Source of the DNA: Acidimicrobiia bacterium
Lineage (GTDB): Bacteria > Actinomycetota > Acidimicrobiia > Spongiisociales > UBA5794
Length of the DNA: 36,674 bases
Direction: 5' to 3'
Assembly (NCBI GenBank): GCA_027036355.1
Contig: JALVQZ010000146.1
Span: 1 to 36,674, forward strand
Shown: positions 5,683 to 15,871 of the stretch, piece after piece
Numbering within the stretch: position 1 is the stretch's first letter
How the letters are laid out: every line of letters starts with the position of its first letter
Translations under genes and position numbers: made by a program
Notes under the pieces: model-generated
Seen by the model: the letters and a program-made list of their open reading frames with translations, nothing else
The model's database searches: none
Told to the model about the DNA's origin: nothing

Positions 5683-5891
5683 TTCCCGCCCTTGTAGACG
5701 CTGTAGAAGGCGCCGGCCGAGAAGGCGATCAGCACCCCCAGCACGAAGATCCCGGCCGCGAAGGGCACCCGCGGGTTGCTGCACGCCACCGTGGTGTTGC
5801 ATGCGGGGGTCGTCCAGAACAGGTAGCTGACGACCATCAAGCCGACGCCGACGACGGCGATGGCGGTCGTGATCCAACCTCGGGTGGTCAT
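5679..5891 (-). CDS. Small two-helix membrane protein of unknown function
   Basis: This encodes 70 residues with two hydrophobic helices: about 6-27 (TTAIAVVGVGLMVVSYLFW) and about 45-65 (FAAGIFVLGVLIAFSAGAF). The loop between them carries two cysteines in CNTTVAC, which could form a disulfide or bind a metal. The first helix is probably N-in, so the Cys loop would face outside; this is a topology guess. No family was recognised. The ATG overlaps the NrfD stop by 4 nt and the stop overlaps the TorD start, so it is translated as part of the operon. A stabilising small subunit of the membrane complex is the simplest idea. Confidence 0.75.
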   Translation of the reverse strand: MTTRGWITTAIAVVGVGLMVVSYLFWTTPACNTTVACSNPRVPFAAGIFVLGVLIAFSAGAFYSVYKGGK

Positions 5892-7180
5892 TGCTCTGCC
5901 TCCTCCAAGGGAACGATCGGGAACACCTTCATGAACACGCCGATCATGATCGCTCCGAGGGAGAACAGACCGAACACGACGGCGAACTCCACCCAGTTCG
6001 GCGTGTACGAGCCGATGGGGTAGGGAAGGAGCTGGCCGTGGGTCTGGCTCGGAACCACGATGAGGTAGCGCTTGGCGACCGCCCCGATGTTGACGAGGAT
6101 CCCCGCCGCGACCGCCGCCGCGATCGTCCATCGTCTCGTCAGCGCCTTCCAGGTCAGCAGCACCGCCGCCGCGACCAGCGACACGATCGCCCCCCAGAAG
6201 ATCCAGGCGTACGTGCCCTTGAGCAACGCGTCGGAGAGCACCTGCTCGGCCGCGCTCGCCTGGTAGGTGATCGTCAGGATCTCGACGGCCGTGAAGTACA
6301 GATAGACGAGCAACAGCCCCAGGAGGAGCTTCGCCAACCACGCGAAGGCGTCGACCGTGATGCGCTTCTCGGTCTTGGTCGCCCAGCGGACGATCGCCGC
6401 CAACATGATCAGGTTGCCGATCCCCGAGACGCCGGCGAGCACCACGAACCCGGGAGCCTGCAACGAGCCGAACCATCCGGGACGGCCGACCTGCAGACCG
6501 AACACGAACCCGACCGTGGAGTGGGCGATCACCAGCAGCGGCAGGATGGCGATGGCGAGCCAGAACGTGGCCCTCCGGTCGATCCTCCGTTGCTCGGGCG
6601 TGTCCTCGTAGCCCGCCGCCAGGAAGCGGTACAGCCCCTGGAACCGGGACGGCTGCAAAGCCAGCCTCGCCGCGTCTCGGCGGCTCGTCACGTACAGGTA
6701 CACGAGACTGGCGAACAGGTACCCCGCGATCACCATCGAGAACGTGCCGAAGAACGGCGACTGAGGTCGCCCGAACTCGAACAGGTTCACGATCGCTCGC
6801 CACGGGTGCTCCAGATCCGCCAGGATCGCCAGCGCCCCCAAGATGAGGGAGACCACGGTCAGCAGCTCCCCCATCCGGGCGACCGGCTCGAGCTTCTCGA
6901 TCTTGAAGATCCGGATCAGCGCCGCCACGGTGATGCCGGCGAAGCTCACACCGATGAAGTAGACGTAGTAGGCGACGTACAGACCCCACGTCGCTCCTCC
7001 GCCCGTCCCGAGGTCGCGCAGGCCCGTCACGATGAGCCCGTTGCCGAGCTGCTGGAAGTAGGCGTACAGCCCGACGACGGTGACCGCCACCATCGCCGCG
7101 AAGAACGCGATCCATCCGGTCGACAGCCTGCCGATGCCTTGCGGGAGCTCTCTCTTTGTCGTCATGGTCTCGGTGGTCAC
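5888..7180 (-). CDS. NrfD/PsrC-type membrane anchor subunit
   Basis: This is a polytopic membrane protein of 430 residues with about nine or ten transmembrane segments. It belongs to the NrfD/PsrC quinone-interacting family that anchors DMSO-reductase-type enzymes. Features include the first helix STGWIAFFAAMVAVTVVG, the conserved YVYFIGVSFAGI segment, LADLEHPWRAIVNLF and VIAHSTVGFVFGLQ. Such subunits exchange electrons between the menaquinone pool and the ferredoxin subunit. The GTG at 7180 overlaps the ferredoxin-subunit stop (GTGA) and is taken as start; an ATG at 7165 is an alternative. It lies between the ferredoxin subunit and the small membrane protein, in the standard A-B-C order. Confidence 0.92.
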   Translation of the reverse strand: MTTETMTTKRELPQGIGRLSTGWIAFFAAMVAVTVVGLYAYFQQLGNGLIVTGLRDLGTGGGATWGLYVAYYVYFIGVSFAGITVAALIRIFKIEKLEPVARMGELLTVVSLILGALAILADLEHPWRAIVNLFEFGRPQSPFFGTFSMVIAGYLFASLVYLYVTSRRDAARLALQPSRFQGLYRFLAAGYEDTPEQRRIDRRATFWLAIAILPLLVIAHSTVGFVFGLQVGRPGWFGSLQAPGFVVLAGVSGIGNLIMLAAIVRWATKTEKRITVDAFAWLAKLLLGLLLVYLYFTAVEILTITYQASAAEQVLSDALLKGTYAWIFWGAIVSLVAAAVLLTWKALTRRWTIAAAVAAGILVNIGAVAKRYLIVVPSQTHGQLLPYPIGSYTPNWVEFAVVFGLFSLGAIMIGVFMKVFPIVPLEEAEQ

Positions 7181-10663: not shown

Positions 10664-10696
10664 ATGGTCCGCATCGAGCGACGGAGCGAGACATGA
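10664..10696 (+). CDS. 10-codon leader ORF coupled to arsR
   Basis: An ATG-initiated reading frame encodes MVRIERRSET and ends at a TGA that overlaps the arsR ATG by 4 nt (ATGA). Its start lies 7 nt after a TAGGCT hexamer, so it could be the true leaderless start of the transcript, with arsR translated by termination-reinitiation. The arsR gene has no good Shine-Dalgarno sequence of its own, which fits. Chance occurrence cannot be excluded for so short a frame. Confidence 0.4.
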   Translation: MVRIERRSET

Positions 10697-11049
10697 CCAC
10701 CACGACACCGCCGAACTGTTGCGCAGAGCCGGCGCCCGAGCGTCCCTTCGACGAGATCGAACTGGCGTCGATCGCCAAGGCACTGGCGCATCCCGCCCGG
10801 ATCGCCATCCTCCAGGCGTTCACCGAATGCCGTCCGCACACCGCCGGCGAGGTGGTGGCCGGTCTCGATCTGGCCCAGTCCACCGTGTCCGAGCACCTGC
10901 GGATCCTGCGCGAGGCGGGGCTCCTGTCGGCGACCCCCGATCCGCCCCGTACCTGGTACTGCATCCGCCGGCCGGTCCTCGAGCAGTTCGCCGCCCAGAT
11001 GAAGGACATCATCGACGGTCAGCTCCACGCGATGGACGCCGCCGAATAG
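10693..11049 (+). CDS. ArsR-family repressor with CC...C metal site
   Basis: This is a winged-helix ArsR-family repressor of 118 residues. The fold is visible as IAKALAHPARIAILQAF (27-43), the recognition helix STVSEHLRILREAGLL and the wing DPPRTWYCI. Vicinal Cys9-Cys10 near the N-terminus plus Cys46 reproduce the layout of the Corynebacterium glutamicum arsenic sensor (Cys15, Cys16, Cys55), so As(III) binding is plausible. The gene is divergent from the molybdoenzyme operon across a 156-bp region containing a 59-bp inverted repeat, and probably controls both directions. Its ATG overlaps the stop of a possible 10-codon leader frame. There is no strong ribosome binding site. Confidence 0.9.
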   Translation: MTTTTPPNCCAEPAPERPFDEIELASIAKALAHPARIAILQAFTECRPHTAGEVVAGLDLAQSTVSEHLRILREAGLLSATPDPPRTWYCIRRPVLEQFAAQMKDIIDGQLHAMDAAE

Positions 11050-11142
11050 CCGTTACGAGATCTTTACACGGCCACCGATACGGCCTTGACGCGGCTCGGG
11101 TTCACTACGACCTGTAGGAACCCCACACAAGGAGTCTGCGAG

Positions 11143-11358
11143 ATGATGTACGGATGGTGGGCCCCCTTCGGAGGCCTGATGATGTTCGCCTTCTTCGCCC
11201 TGATCGTCTGGCTGATCGTCGCCGCGGTCCGGCCGGACCGAGAGGCCCAGACGAGCGGACGGACCGCCCTCGACGTCCTCGATGCCCGGTTCGCCCGCGG
11301 TGAGATCGACGACGAGGAGTACCGGACCCGCAGGTCGGTCATCGAAGGGAGCATCTGA
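11143..11358 (+). CDS. Small SHOCT-domain membrane protein
   Basis: This encodes 71 residues: a short N-terminus (MMYGWWAPFGG), one transmembrane helix at about 12-28 (LMMFAFFALIVWLIVAA), and a C-terminal SHOCT-type segment at about 40-68 with LDARFARGEIDDEEYRTRR. SHOCT segments are short oligomerisation or docking modules of uncertain function, common in small actinobacterial membrane proteins. The ATG at 11143 is chosen for its AAGGAG ribosome binding site. The stop shares one base with the ATG of the downstream Met-rich secreted protein, so the two are coupled. The cluster continues with a two-component system, suggesting an envelope metal-stress role. Confidence 0.85.
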   Translation: MMYGWWAPFGGLMMFAFFALIVWLIVAAVRPDREAQTSGRTALDVLDARFARGEIDDEEYRTRRSVIEGSI

Positions 11359-11693
11359 TGGTGAAGAAGACCTTGGCCGTCGCGGCCCTCGCCGCGGCGC
11401 TCCTGGCCGGCACGTCGGCGGCCCTGGCCTCGCCGGGCAACGACGACGCTGCCGCCCCGGCCGATCACTGGAGCGAGATGGCGACCGAGATGGGCGACGA
11501 GTGGCCCTCGATGGTCGCGCACATGCAGGAACGGCTCGGCGACGCCTTCCCCCAGATGGTGGCCCAGATGCAGGCCACCGAAGCCCACATGGACTCCATG
11601 GGGATGGGCTCTATGGGGATGGGCTCCATGGGGATGGGCTGGGACATGGAGGGTTCCTCCATGGGCTCCATGGGCACCTGGATGGACCGCTGA
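11358..11693 (+). CDS. Secreted methionine-rich protein, putative soft-metal binder
   Basis: This encodes 111 residues with a Sec signal peptide (KK, then a hydrophobic stretch to residue 23; cleavage probably near LASPG). The mature part has about seventeen methionines and several histidines. Its C-terminal half is built of MGMGS repeats, encoded by three exact-phase 15-nt units (11598-11642), followed by SMGSMGTWMD. No Cys is present. Met clusters of this kind bind Cu(I) or Ag(I) in periplasmic copper proteins, so metal sequestration outside the membrane is the favoured guess. It is coupled to the SHOCT gene and followed by a hairpin and then a two-component system. The sensor kinase of that system has a similar MGSMMD motif in its outer loop. 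No established family was recognised. Confidence 0.8.
   Translation: MVKKTLAVAALAAALLAGTSAALASPGNDDAAAPADHWSEMATEMGDEWPSMVAHMQERLGDAFPQMVAQMQATEAHMDSMGMGSMGMGSMGMGWDMEGSSMGSMGTWMDR
11598..11642 (+). repeat. 15-nt tandem repeat x3 in the Met-rich gene
   Basis: Three copies of ATGGGGATGGGC plus a variable triplet (TCT, TCC, TGG) begin at 11598, 11613 and 11628. They encode MGMGS, MGMGS and MGMGW in frame. Units of 15 nt would allow copy-number changes without frameshift. Confidence 0.85.
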
Positions 11694-11700
11694 GGCCGGC

Positions 11701-11733
11701 CCACGATCGTGGCGGGGACCTGCGGGTCCCCGC
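11701..11733 (+). terminator. Palindrome followed by a GC-rich hairpin
   Basis: CCACGATCGTGG (11701-11712) is a perfect 12-bp palindrome. It is followed by a 9-bp stem, GCGGGGACC (11712-11720) with GGTCCCCGC (11725-11733), and a 4-nt loop. Only a weak T-tract (TACCTTT) follows. It probably terminates or attenuates the Met-rich transcript before the response regulator gene; the palindrome could be a regulator site. Confidence 0.55.
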
Positions 11734-11762
11734 TACCTTTGTGCACCCGACACCGAGACGCC

Positions 11763-12455
11763 ATGCCCGGCCCCCGCATCCTCCTCGCCGACGACGAACG
11801 TGAGCTTCGCGACATGCTCACGGCCTACCTCCAAGCCGAGGGCTTCGAGGTGATCGAGGCGACCGACGGTCGAGCCGCCCTCGAGGCAGCCCGACGAGAG
11901 GAACCCGACCTCATCCTCCTCGACGTCGGAATGCCCGAGATGGACGGCTTCGAGGTCCTCGGCGAGCTTCGACGCCGCTCCAGCGTGCCGGTGATCATGC
12001 TCACCGCCCGCGCCGAGGAGGTGGACCGGGTCGTGGGACTCACCGTGGGCGCCGACGACTACGTCACCAAGCCCTTCAGCCCCCGGGAGCTGGTGGCCCG
12101 CATCAAGGCGGTCCTCCGCAGAGGACGCATGGCCGCCGAGGAGGACCGCCCTCTGCGGTTCCCGGGCCTCACCATCGACATCGCCGCCCACGAGGTCGTC
12201 AAGGACGGCGAACCGGTCGAGCTGACGACCCTCGAGTTCGATCTCCTCGTCGCCCTCGCGTCGTCGCCGGGTCGGGTGTTGAGCCGGGACCACCTGATGG
12301 AACGCGTGTGGGGATGGGACTTCGTCGGCGTCGATCGCGTCGTCGACGTCCACATCTCGAACCTGCGCCGCATCCTGGACGACGACCCCTCCGATCCCCG
12401 CTACATCGCCACCGTCCGCGGCGTGGGGTACAAGTTCATCGCCGAGCCGCTGTGA
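11763..12455 (+). CDS. OmpR/PhoB-family response regulator
   Basis: This encodes 230 residues with a receiver domain (about 5-118) and a winged-helix transcription domain (about 135-228). The acidic pocket is Asp10-Asp11, the phosphoacceptor is Asp54 (LILLDVGMPEMDG), and the conserved Lys is in VTKPFSPRELVARI. The C-terminal domain has ELTTLEFDLL, the recognition region RVVDVHISNLRRIL and the wing TVRGVGYKF. The ATG at 11763 begins the receiver fold; an upstream extension would add no conserved sequence. Its stop overlaps the GTG of the sensor kinase, so they are a cognate pair. Likely targets include the Met-rich protein operon upstream. The 12-bp palindrome at 11701 is a candidate site. Confidence 0.95.
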   Translation: MPGPRILLADDERELRDMLTAYLQAEGFEVIEATDGRAALEAARREEPDLILLDVGMPEMDGFEVLGELRRRSSVPVIMLTARAEEVDRVVGLTVGADDYVTKPFSPRELVARIKAVLRRGRMAAEEDRPLRFPGLTIDIAAHEVVKDGEPVELTTLEFDLLVALASSPGRVLSRDHLMERVWGWDFVGVDRVVDVHISNLRRILDDDPSDPRYIATVRGVGYKFIAEPL

Positions 12456-13567
12456 GACGTCTCCTGTCGACCCTCCGAGCCCGGCTGGTGATCTCTCATC
12501 TGTCGGCCGTGTTCCTCGGGGTGCTGACCACGATCCTCGTCACCGAACCGCTGACCCAGCGGTTCTTCCGAGATCACACCATGGACTCCGGGTTCGAGGG
12601 GATGATGGGCGGTGGCACGATGGGATCGATGATGGATCGGCTCCAGGACAACCTCGCGGCATCGTTCCGGTCGGCCCTCCTGGTGGCTTTCGCCGCTGCC
12701 GCGGTCACCGCCGTGATCGCCAGCATCGTGGCCGCCCGCCGCATCGCCCAACCGATCGAACAGATGAGCGAAGCCACCCTCGAGCTCGCCGAAGGCAACT
12801 ACGACCGGCGCGTGCCGGTGCCCGACGTGGTCGAACTGGCGACGCTGGCCGAGAGCGTCAACACCCTCGCTCGCTCCCTTGCCGAGACCGAGGAACGCCG
12901 GCTCCGGCTCATCAACGAGGTCGCCCACGAGCTGCGAACGCCCCTGACGACGATCGAGGGGTACATGGAGGGCCTCCTCGACGGCGTGTTCCAACCCTCC
13001 GACCAGATCTTCGGCGCCACCGCACGCGAAGCGGCGAGGCTCAAGCGTCTCGCCGCCGATCTCAGCCTCCTGTCGCGGGCAGACGAGGACGCGCTCGAGC
13101 TCCGTTTCGAGCCGGTCGACCTTGCCGCCGTCGTCGCCGACGTCGCCGGATCGCTCCGGCCCCTGTTCGTGGCCAGGGACATCTCGCTGTCGGTCGACGG
13201 CGCCGACGCCCCGATCACGGTGCGCGGGGACCGGGATCGTCTCGCCCAGGTCTTCACGAACATCATCGGCAACGCCGTGTCCTACACCGATCCGGGGGGA
13301 CGAGTCGAGGTCCGCGTCGACGTCGACCCCGACAACGCCGTGGTCACGATCGCCGACACGGGCAAGGGGATCGCTCCCGACGAACTCGAGCGGATCTTCG
13401 AGCGGTTCCATCGGGTCGACCCGAACCTCCCGGGAGGCACGGGGGTCGGGCTGACGGTCGCCCGGAGCCTCGTCCGTCGCCACGGGGGAGAGGTCGTGGC
13501 CCACTCGGACGGACCCGGGACCGGGTCGCGCTTCGTCGTCTCCCTGCCGAGGGATAGATCGTCGTAA
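12452..13567 (+). CDS. Sensor histidine kinase with Met-rich sensor loop
   Basis: This is a 371-residue membrane kinase. TM1 is about 12-31, an extracytoplasmic loop spans about 32-72, TM2 about 73-95, and HAMP about 96-148. The HisKA motif EVAHELRTPLTT has phosphoacceptor His159, and the ATPase domain shows FTNIIGNAVSY (N box), IADTGKGIAPDELERIFERF (G1/F) and GGTGVGLTVARSLV (G2). The loop is short and contains His42 and six methionines at 44, 51, 52, 57, 60 and 61 in MMGGGTMGSMMD. This suggests direct sensing of Cu(I), Ag(I) or a similar soft metal, which is inference. The GTG overlaps the regulator stop (GTGA). An architecture of short loop plus HAMP is typical of CusS/CutS-like sensors. 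Confidence 0.94.
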   Translation: MRRLLSTLRARLVISHLSAVFLGVLTTILVTEPLTQRFFRDHTMDSGFEGMMGGGTMGSMMDRLQDNLAASFRSALLVAFAAAAVTAVIASIVAARRIAQPIEQMSEATLELAEGNYDRRVPVPDVVELATLAESVNTLARSLAETEERRLRLINEVAHELRTPLTTIEGYMEGLLDGVFQPSDQIFGATAREAARLKRLAADLSLLSRADEDALELRFEPVDLAAVVADVAGSLRPLFVARDISLSVDGADAPITVRGDRDRLAQVFTNIIGNAVSYTDPGGRVEVRVDVDPDNAVVTIADTGKGIAPDELERIFERFHRVDPNLPGGTGVGLTVARSLVRRHGGEVVAHSDGPGTGSRFVVSLPRDRSS

Positions 13568-13626
13568 ATGCGACACTTCGGCAACGGGGGTCCCCGCGGC
13601 CGTCGTTGCTGCGTCGAGGAGGAACG

Positions 13627-14838
13627 ATGCCCCGAACCAGACTGACCGCCCTCACCGCCGGCGTCGCGCTGATCGCGGCCGCGTGCGCCTCCGGTGCGGG
13701 AACGCAACCCGATCCCACCGATCCGACGTCGACGACCGCGACGACCACCGAAGCGGCGGTCCAATCCGCCTCCAACCTCCCGACGGGAGTCTCCGCCCTC
13801 GACGACCGGTTCGACCCGAGCTTCCCCGAGCCGCTCATCGACCCCTCCGAGGTCCTGTCCGGTGGGCCGCCCCCCGACGGCATCCCCCCGATCGACGACC
13901 CACAGTTCGTCGACGTCGCGACCGCCGATGCGTGGCTCAACGATCCCGAGCCGGTCCTCGTCGTCCAGGTCGGCGACGATGTGCGTGCCTATCCGATCCA
14001 GATCCTCATGTGGCACGAGATCGTCAACGACACCGTCGGGGGCGAGCCGTTGGCCGTCACCTACTGCCCGCTGTGCAACTCGGCGATCACGTTCCGTCGG
14101 GTCGTCCGCGGCGTCGAGGTGACGTTCGGGACCTCGGGGAGCCTCTACAACGCGAACCTCGTCATGTACGACCGTGCCACCGAGAGCCTGTGGAACCAAC
14201 TCGACGGCCGGGCCGTCATCGGCCTCCTCACCGGCGAACAGCTCGAGCAGCTCCCGTCGGTCATGATCTCGTGGGCGGACGTCAAGGCCACCCACCCCGA
14301 CGCGAAGGTCCTCGACCGCGAACGCACGGGGTACCGGCGCAACTACGGGACGAACCCGTACACGGGCCTCGACGATCCCAACGGGCAACCGTTCCTCTTC
14401 CGAGGCGACGTCGACGTGCGGGCCAAGGCCATGCAGCGGATCGTCGCCATCGAGAACGGCGACGCGGCCGTCGCCTGGGCGCTCGACGCCATCAGCGGGG
14501 ACGGTCCGACCGTGACGACCGGCACGTTCGACGGCGATCCGCTGGTGATCTTCTGGGAACCGGGCCAATCCTCGGCGTTGGACACCTCCGACATCGCCGG
14601 CGGCCGCGACGTCGGCAACGTCGGGGTGTTCTCACCGATCGTCGACGGCCAGGAGCTGACGTTCCAGGCCGACGACGGCGGGTTCGTCGACGACCAGACC
14701 GGTTCCCGCTGGGACATCTTCGGCGAGGCGACCTCCGGACCACTGGCGGGGACCAGGCTGGAGCCGGTCACGTTCGTTCGCACCTTCTGGTTCTCGTGGG
14801 CGGCGTTCCGGCCCGACACCGACCTCATCGAGGCCTGA
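13627..14838 (+). CDS. DUF3179 domain lipoprotein
   Basis: This encodes 403 residues starting with a lipoprotein signal (VALIAAACASG, lipidated Cys near residue 20) and a Thr/Pro-rich linker to about residue 45. The DUF3179 domain follows, with YPIQILMWHEIVND, VTYCPLCNSAITF (a C-x2-C motif), FGTSGSLYNANLVMYDR and ESLWNQLDG. The family function is unknown; the C-x2-C motif could bind metal or be redox active. The start is supported by a GAGGAGG ribosome binding site. It lies 59 bp downstream of the sensor kinase, so a shared transcript is possible but not shown. It is followed by a hydrolase gene with its own -10-like element. Confidence 0.88.
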   Translation: MPRTRLTALTAGVALIAAACASGAGTQPDPTDPTSTTATTTEAAVQSASNLPTGVSALDDRFDPSFPEPLIDPSEVLSGGPPPDGIPPIDDPQFVDVATADAWLNDPEPVLVVQVGDDVRAYPIQILMWHEIVNDTVGGEPLAVTYCPLCNSAITFRRVVRGVEVTFGTSGSLYNANLVMYDRATESLWNQLDGRAVIGLLTGEQLEQLPSVMISWADVKATHPDAKVLDRERTGYRRNYGTNPYTGLDDPNGQPFLFRGDVDVRAKAMQRIVAIENGDAAVAWALDAISGDGPTVTTGTFDGDPLVIFWEPGQSSALDTSDIAGGRDVGNVGVFSPIVDGQELTFQADDGGFVDDQTGSRWDIFGEATSGPLAGTRLEPVTFVRTFWFSWAAFRPDTDLIEA

Positions 14839-14864
14839 ACGAGCGAGGGACCGAGCCCGATGCG

Positions 14865-14870
14865 TACACT
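14865..14870 (+). promoter_or_regulatory. -10 hexamer TACACT, probable leaderless promoter
   Basis: TACACT ends 6 nt before the GTG start of the hydrolase gene, with no Shine-Dalgarno sequence between. No convincing -35 box is present. Confidence 0.4.
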
Positions 14871-14876
14871 CGGATC

Positions 14877-15683
14877 GTGCGCGCGCAGGAGGGGAACGGG
14901 TCGGAAAGCGACCTGACCGTCGACGGCATGGCCGTCTACCTCGCGGTGCCCGAGACGACGCCCGCGCCCGGCGTTCTCGTCCTCCATGAACTGTTCGGCC
15001 TCAACGACGACATCCGCGCGATCGCGGATCGGTTCGCTGCCCTCGGCTACGTCGCCGCCGCCCCCGACCTCGTCGGAGGAGGGAGCATCCGGTGCGTCGC
15101 CCGGGCGCTCCGCGACCTGTCCCGGTCGGACGGGCCGACGGTCGCCGCGGCCGAACGGATGCTGGAGTGGTTGTCCCACCGGCCGGACGTCCACGGCGGG
15201 GTCGGCGTCGCCGGGTTCTGCATGGGTGCGTCGTTCGCGATGCTCCTCGGGAGCAGGGGCGACGCCGCGGTGGTGTCGGCGGCCTACGGGGAGCCGCCTG
15301 ACGACGACCTGGTGGCGCGCATGTGCCCGACGGTGGCCCACTACGGGGACCTGGATCGGATGTTCCGTCGGTTCGCCGAGCCGCTCGACGCCGGCTTGGC
15401 TCGAGCGGGGATCCCCCACGACGTGAAGCGGTACCCCGGCGTCGGGCATTCGTTCATGAACCGCGGGGACGAGGACCACCCCGTCGTCCGTCGCATCGCT
15501 CGGCCGCTCATGGCGGTCGGCTACGACGAAGATGCGGCCGAGGATGCGTGGCGGAGGATCGAGGCGTTCTTCGCCGTATACCTCACCCGGGCCGAACCCG
15601 AGATCGTGATCGACCTCCGCGACGGGGCGGAAGAGCCCATCGCCGATCCGGTCGAGCTCAACGACCACGACGGCCCCGTGTGA
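14877..15683 (+). CDS. Dienelactone-hydrolase-family protein
   Basis: This is an alpha/beta hydrolase of 268 residues. The dienelactone hydrolase nucleophile is Cys in GFCMGASF, with the acid in YGDLDRMF and the His in YPGVGHSFMNR. LVLHELFGLNDDIRAIADRFAALGY is the typical N-terminal core. Classical members open enol lactones in chlorocatechol degradation, but most homologues act on unknown esters or lactones; no catabolic partner genes are adjacent. About 35 residues after the final core helix (AFFAVYL) form an acidic tail not needed for the fold. The GTG start is chosen because a TACACT hexamer ends 6 nt upstream. Cytoplasmic location is expected. Confidence 0.85.
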   Translation: MRAQEGNGSESDLTVDGMAVYLAVPETTPAPGVLVLHELFGLNDDIRAIADRFAALGYVAAAPDLVGGGSIRCVARALRDLSRSDGPTVAAAERMLEWLSHRPDVHGGVGVAGFCMGASFAMLLGSRGDAAVVSAAYGEPPDDDLVARMCPTVAHYGDLDRMFRRFAEPLDAGLARAGIPHDVKRYPGVGHSFMNRGDEDHPVVRRIARPLMAVGYDEDAAEDAWRRIEAFFAVYLTRAEPEIVIDLRDGAEEPIADPVELNDHDGPV

Positions 15684-15698
15684 GCCGTCACGTGGTAT

Positions 15699-15726
15699 CG
15701 TTACATCGATAGCTATCGATGTAACG
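15699..15726. promoter_or_regulatory. 28-bp perfect palindrome, candidate operator
   Basis: CGTTACATCGATAG followed by its exact reverse complement spans 15699-15726 with no loop. It lies 15 bp after the hydrolase stop and 24 bp before the ATG of a 20-codon ORF. Perfect symmetry and AT-richness relative to the window suggest a dimeric regulator binding site (PadR-, TetR- or GntR-like proteins bind such dyads). Which regulator binds is unknown. Confidence 0.75.
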
Positions 15727-15737
15727 TCGAACCGAGA

Positions 15738-15747
15738 GAGGAGGTGA
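15738..15747 (+). promoter_or_regulatory. Near-perfect Shine-Dalgarno sequence
   Basis: GAGGAGGTGA matches nine consecutive bases (AGGAGGTGA) of the anti-Shine-Dalgarno complement, with the AGGAGG core ending 6 nt before ATG 15751. It is the strongest ribosome binding site noticed in the window, and it precedes only a 20-codon frame. Confidence 0.7.
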
Positions 15748-15750
15748 CAC

Positions 15751-15813
15751 ATGACGCGCTTCATGGTGCCTCGTGTCGCCCACTGTTCGGACGGTTGCCG
15801 AACGGCGTCCTGA
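15751..15813 (+). CDS. 20-residue micro-ORF with strong RBS
   Basis: This 20-codon frame starts at the ATG placed 6 nt after an ideal AGGAGG. The peptide has HCSDGC near its C-terminal end (His11, Cys12, Cys16), a possible metal or redox motif. It matches no family known to me. It lies between a 28-bp palindrome and a 16-bp-stem hairpin, so the whole region looks like an independent mini transcription unit. Alternatives are a leader peptide for regulation of the downstream gene, a decayed gene, or a structured RNA in which the frame is incidental. Confidence 0.5.
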   Translation: MTRFMVPRVAHCSDGCRTAS

Positions 15814-15824
15814 GCACGACACGA
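15771..15824 (+). ncRNA. Nested hairpin structure overlapping the micro-ORF
   Basis: TCGTGTCG (15771-15778) pairs with CGACACGA (15817-15824). Inside it GTTCGG (15785-15790) pairs with CCGAAC (15798-15803) around a 7-nt loop. Together with the hairpin at 15837-15871 this could form a three-helix RNA. Function is unknown; the region may act as a leader or small RNA. Confidence 0.35.
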
Positions 15825-15836
15825 AACTGCTCGCAT

Positions 15837-15871
15837 CGTGTGGGGACGGCCCGTCGGGCCGTCCCCACACG
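15837..15871 (+). terminator. Strong 16-bp hairpin
   Basis: CGTGTGGGGACGGCCC (15837-15852) pairs perfectly with its complement at 15856-15871 around a 3-nt loop. There is no T-tract, as is common in high-GC genomes. It separates the micro-ORF from the promoter at 15882-15909 and probably terminates the upstream transcript. Confidence 0.65.

Follow-up and report, generated by a model that had tools for sequence, protein, structure and literature searches.

A family of Cys/His micropeptides shared by bacteria and phages, mostly encoded with a pseudoknot at the stop codon and repeatedly found beside metal genes

The short open reading frame (ORF) at positions 15751-15813 of the window (the whole stretch of 36,674 nucleotides that was analysed) belongs to an undescribed family of Cys/His micropeptides, about 16-25 aa in length, and is a real gene as judged by comparison with its homologues. 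These comparisons confirmed that the feature is larger than first noted, with the family spanning many bacterial phyla as well as phages. The simplest account of the unit is a complete miniature gene, composed of operator-promoter, strong Shine-Dalgarno (SD) sequence, ORF, stop-codon pseudoknot and terminator, whose product is a micropeptide predicted to act in metal stress. To this reading as a whole we assign a probability of roughly 0.55, with both function and metal specificity being putative.

The original prediction had described a palindrome, an SD match, a 20-codon ORF and hairpins at this locus, and all four were found where it had placed them. The palindrome (CGTTACATCGATAGCTATCGATGTAACG, 15699-15726, assigned to neither strand) is a perfect one of 28 bp with the core ATCGA-N6-TCGAT. 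The SD sequence (AGAGGAGGTGAC, 15737-15748, forward strand) contains the nine-base match AGGAGGTGA from position 15739, a 9-mer that occurs twice in the window, counting this one; an SD sequence precedes nearly all homologues. The ORF (MTRFMVPRVAHCSDGCRTAS; MTRFMVPRVAHCSDGC...; forward strand) begins with ATG at 15751 and consists of 20 codons followed by the stop codon TGA (15811-15813). This stop codon lies inside an H-type pseudoknot (15807-15833, forward strand), which is separated by 8 nt from codon 16 (15796-15798). Stem S1 pairs GTC (15807-15809) with GAC (15818-15820), S2 pairs TGAGCA (15811-15816) with TGCTCG (15828-15833), and loop L3 reads ACGAAAC. Nested hairpins are indeed present, the conserved one (TGAGCA...TGCTCG, 15811-15833) being S2, the main stem of the pseudoknot. 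The perfect 16-bp hairpin that follows (about 15837-15871, forward strand) has no U-tract and is likely a transcription terminator. The 153-nt transcript region as a whole folds more stably than its shuffled versions (z = -4.8).

Homologues were identified by three approaches. A nucleotide search gave matches in ten of the 50 genomes of the family, one of them weak, and a copy from the same genus matched at 95% over exactly the part from SD through ORF to hairpin. This copy (genome G001) carries a 1-nt insertion and the change H11R, and possesses neither palindrome nor terminator; it is a decaying copy. Among the order's 138 genomes, approximately 24 gave strong matches to a covariance model built on ten copies, with E-values down to about 1e-39. 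When 85,000 species genomes were scanned with a degenerate pattern, 86 stretches were returned, nearly all of which encode the same peptide; the exceptions include two Paenibacillus matches (L138 and L201), which were rejected as spurious. In total, about 85 copies come from bacteria of many phyla, and phages contribute about 25 distinct versions. Carriers from the pattern scan within the Actinomycetota belong to Acidimicrobiia, the Solincola/Geothermincola group and Thermoleophilia, and others to deltaproteobacterial lineages, KSB1, Zixibacteria, Elusimicrobia, Anaerolineales, Cytophagales and Patescibacteria MAGs. Occurrence at class level is patchy (27 of 395 genomes), which, together with the differing contexts of the copies, suggests horizontal spread.

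The family consensus is M-x-R-F-[MT]-[IV]-P-R-[VTI]-A-H-C-[SDG]-[DE]-G-[C/H]. Among single-base codon differences, 16396 are synonymous and 3729 non-synonymous, and codons 3-16 differ mostly at synonymous positions; part of this bias is imposed by the search pattern, and the pattern-free hits of the covariance model show the same. Residues F4, P7, R8, A10, H11, C12 and G15 were fixed by the pattern. Those that were not fixed, or only partly, are also conserved (R3 in 80, [DE]14 in 78 and [CH]16 in 81 of 83 copies), and the pattern-free hits agree on the conserved residues. Position 16 is Cys in 73 and His in 8 of the 83. The stop position varies, being TGA at codon 21 (in S2), TGA at codon 23, TAA at codon 25 (in L3), or a stop at codons 17-19. 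Codon comparison thus shows a peptide under coding selection that is common to bacterial phyla and phages. Two variants (L092 and L093, from genomes G129 and G128) have HCPSGG in place of HCSDGC, with the ligands lost and the pseudoknot and frame kept; these are possibly decaying or neofunctional. On one Acidimicrobiia contig (L190, the same as L076) two micro-genes lie approximately 1 kb apart with a small gene between them, and in L204 (6530-6700) the first copy is immediately followed by a second (MKRYKIPRVAHCDSG...); no other tandem gene pair was seen.

An H-type pseudoknot can form just downstream of codon 16 in 73 of the 86 bacterial copies (consensus GUC-C-YRRGCA-h-GAC-nnnAAAC-UGCYYR). 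The 8-nt spacer from codon 16 is found in all 73, even where the stop codon comes earlier, and L3 is 7 nt long in 70 of them. Translation stops before or within the pseudoknot in almost all copies, usually within it. Stem S2 covaries without a single mismatch in 73 copies (pair 3, GC in 47 and AU in 26; pair 4, GC in 68 and AU in 5), and in the order-level alignment the structure exceeds every shuffle, in cells paired and in covariation score, and all slid controls. The 3-bp stem S1 is mostly invariant, with clean double changes in L089 (AUC/GAU) and L149 (GAC/GUC) and two broken cases, and is regarded from these alignments as the less certain helix. Behind the pseudoknot position there is a hairpin in 52 of the 86 copies, as against 9 of the control stretches, and L188 has two pseudoknots in tandem. 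Members of the Solincola/Geothermincola group (L128, L143, L150, L160, L162, L168 and L192) keep the peptide and have a plain GC hairpin instead of the pseudoknot; this group also has its own conserved, unannotated gene upstream of the micro-gene. A few other copies have plain hairpins as well.

In 56 of 75 loci the upstream neighbour shares the strand of the micro-gene, and the downstream neighbour is split between same (44) and opposite (32) strands, indicating that the micro-gene is usually the last of its operon. The gene merA is located directly upstream in many Acidimicrobiia copies. Nine named loci have genes for P1B heavy-metal ATPases no more than 4 kb away, where we estimate about 0.6 to be expected from approximately 2.3 such genes per genome of approximately 2.9 Mb, and further loci carry CsoR, ArsR, ZnuA, FUR, MerR, ArsM-type, TRASH/YHS or DsbD proteins. 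In about two thirds of loci no metal gene was recognised up to 4 kb away, their contexts including GGR/rubrerythrin, serS, PDZ protease and uncharacterised genes. In L151, L183 and L204 the gene immediately before the micro-gene is serS (seryl-tRNA synthetase), and one copy follows a gene for a CCA-adding-type enzyme. Operator-like sites were identified at several loci. In L146, which has a CsoR-family gene, the upstream sequence TTATAATACCCCTATAGGGTATTATAA fits the published CsoR consensus ATATACCCCTNAGGGGTATAT (PMC3902906). In L163 and L194, palindromes of the type ATCGACATATGTCGAT occupy the gap that separates the micro-gene from a divergent ArsR gene, a Fur-like site (TGAGAATSGTTCTCG) is found beside zinc-uptake-type genes in L131/L156, and L083/L089 possess a MerR-type dyad (TTCCAG-N4-CTGGAA) behind TTGACA with a divergent MerR gene adjoining.

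In the window, the micro-gene is the last member of a co-directional run on the forward strand (10693-15813). This begins with an ArsR/SmtB-family metalloregulator with an N-terminal CC (10693-11049; NF033788 above cut-off) and continues with a SHOCT protein, a small secreted protein whose translation is Met-rich (11358-11693), an OmpR-type response regulator and a histidine kinase (11763-13567), and a DUF3179 protein and a dienelactone-hydrolase-family protein (13606-15683). The kinase (12455-13567) has a Met-rich sensor loop (GMMGGGTMGSMM), which together with the Met-rich secreted protein suggests a Cu/Ag-type sensing locus missed by family models. As for the control of the window copy, the ArsR-type protein would be the candidate regulator. 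No other perfect palindrome in the window has 14-bp arms (none occurred in 100 Markov windows), and this one has no second copy within three mismatches in the 3.0-Mb genome. Conservation in relatives, on which the original prediction had staked its case, extends to the ORF, the SD sequence and the pseudoknot and stops short of the palindrome, which is missing from all relatives compared, including the decayed same-genus copy. Its ATCGA-N6-TCGAT core is shared with L163, where it lies between the divergent ArsR gene and the micro-gene. It is probably a repressor operator of the window copy, overlapping the promoter or just upstream of it.

Scans of viral sequences gave 36 contigs, most of which encode M..[KR]FM[ILV]PR[VIT]AHC.[NK]GC followed by a stop codon. 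These copies are located in structural-gene regions without metal genes, and the peptide is present without the pseudoknot, which argues that the peptide is the product. Readthrough of UGA-CUA in phages was rejected, as the CTA is a convergent gene's TAG stop codon read on the other strand. On phage contigs L243 and L245, and putatively on L241, a tmRNA of the permuted/two-piece type lies approximately 230-260 nt downstream on the same strand, and L221, which also holds a micro-gene, contains a Pistol ribozyme (5883-5946).

That no known element had been recognised here was borne out: Pfam and NCBIfam contained no family matching the peptide, and Rfam had no relevant match for the window, four loci with canonical pseudoknots or the phage loci. 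A PDB sequence search returned only a chance match (E = 3.6), tblastn of GenBank plasmid and phage collections returned none, the 22-aa query having little power, and the peptide sequence was not found printed in the literature searched. Pfam and NCBIfam lack a peptide of about 16 residues that hardly varies among the many bacterial phyla, and the phages, that encode it; genes so short are usually skipped by annotation. The covarying pseudoknots enclosing the stop codon form a new family, and the peptide recurs in connection with the control of mercury, copper, arsenic and zinc.

Under the metal-stress reading, thiophilic-metal or thiol stress would switch the gene on through a local sensor (ArsR-type here; CsoR, MerR or Fur/Zur elsewhere), and a micropeptide lacking a secretion signal would be the working product. 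H11, C12 and C/H16 would serve as ligands for a soft metal ion; R3-F4 and P7-R8-x-A10, which are invariant, may touch a conserved partner; and the pseudoknot may slow or time the ribosome at codons 15-16 and keep termination local. The synonymous bias, alternative stops, Cys/His exchange at position 16, metal neighbours and operator-like sites support this reading; against it stand the two thirds of loci without a metal gene and the phage copies in structural-gene regions. The strong conservation of non-ligand residues indicates that more than metal binding is involved. If the function holds, micropeptides linked to metal stress or to translation would gain a new type, and mRNA 3' ends a new element.

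The main rival is a role in the nascent chain or in ribosome pausing, which we consider unlikely: the ribosome would pause at Gly15-Cys16 against the pseudoknot, the chain in the exit tunnel would sense metal or redox state, and the output would be local, for example on mRNA stability or termination of the upstream operon. The fixed spacer and pseudoknot argue that in most bacteria it is of consequence where the ribosome stands at codons 15-16, and for this reason the model is retained. Eight nt is the spacing of known recoding and pausing pseudoknots, and with so few residues the peptide cannot emerge from the tunnel. Nascent chains that sense copper are known in CruR (PMC9426467) and CutF (PMC9973294). 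Against this model, the downstream gene is inconsistent in orientation and a terminator-like hairpin usually comes next, and phages and the Solincola/Geothermincola group have the peptide without the pseudoknot. A related proposal, judged slightly less probable again, is that an HCx[DE]G[CH] chain paused at Gly15-Cys16, together with the pseudoknot at the ribosome entrance, captures a soft-metal or thiol signal, with phages using the peptide alone.

It is rather improbable that the RNA is the product, namely a small regulatory RNA from the 3' end with an active pseudoknot and an accessory ORF. The covarying stem, the tandem pseudoknots of L188 and the predicted short transcript with its terminator favour this, but codons are conserved, the stop is maintained and phage copies have only the peptide. 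Still less probable is a peptide acting not on metals but on translation, through the ribosome or tRNA metabolism; the three copies after serS, the one after the CCA-adding-type gene, the phage lineage with a tmRNA shortly downstream and an invariance across phyla and phages that fits a universal target would agree with it, but such cases are few and the metal operators would be unexplained. The lack of conservation of the palindrome itself would suit a chance palindrome beside a spurious ORF, a reading refuted by the order-wide covariance-model matches and the cross-phylum pattern scan.

Several known systems resemble the micro-gene in part. CruR and CutF, DUF2946-type copper-responsive uORFs (PMC9426467, PMC9973294), are likewise small metal-linked ORFs with a Cys motif and a nearby RNA structure in metal loci. 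They are exported, combine CXXC with an arrest motif that is RAPP-like or proline-rich, and precede the genes under their control, whereas the micropeptide has 16-25 codons, the consensus HCx[DE]G[CH] with neither RAPP nor a Pro-rich C-terminus, and a position that is mostly last in the operon, the orientation of the next gene being near random (44/32) rather than that of a controlled metal gene. An attenuation leader peptide for the next gene was rejected, as the same 44 to 32 split leaves no conserved co-oriented target. Thus, of the possibilities first offered, regulated micropeptide and structured RNA (the latter as the stop-codon pseudoknot) were retained and leader peptide was not.

Bacterial metallothioneins such as SmtA and MymT are metal-regulated, cytosolic and contain Cys and His, all of which is predicted for the micropeptide as well, the operator-like sites and metal neighbours being what bears on its possible metal regulation. 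It differs in that its 16-20 residues include only two Cys (or Cys and His) plus a single additional His, in place of the many Cys that bind a metal cluster, and in that its non-ligand residues are as invariant as the ligands. Signals for -1 frameshifting or stop-codon readthrough use an H-type pseudoknot downstream of the decoding site, and the fold seen here, about 8 nt past that site in 73 of 73 copies, lies within their fixed 6-9-nt spacing. Its stop codon lies in the pseudoknot, unlike in such sites, and neither a slippery heptamer nor a conserved extended product was found, the downstream sequence not being conserved. Selenocysteine readthrough, as in a selenoprotein with a SECIS element, was rejected because stop codon and position vary (TGA, TAG, TAA and sense codons). 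MntS is a tiny protein whose gene is under metal-sensor control, for a single metal in a single lineage; the micro-gene would resemble it in sensor control, and differs in showing no recognised sequence relation and in its association with several sensors and phyla.
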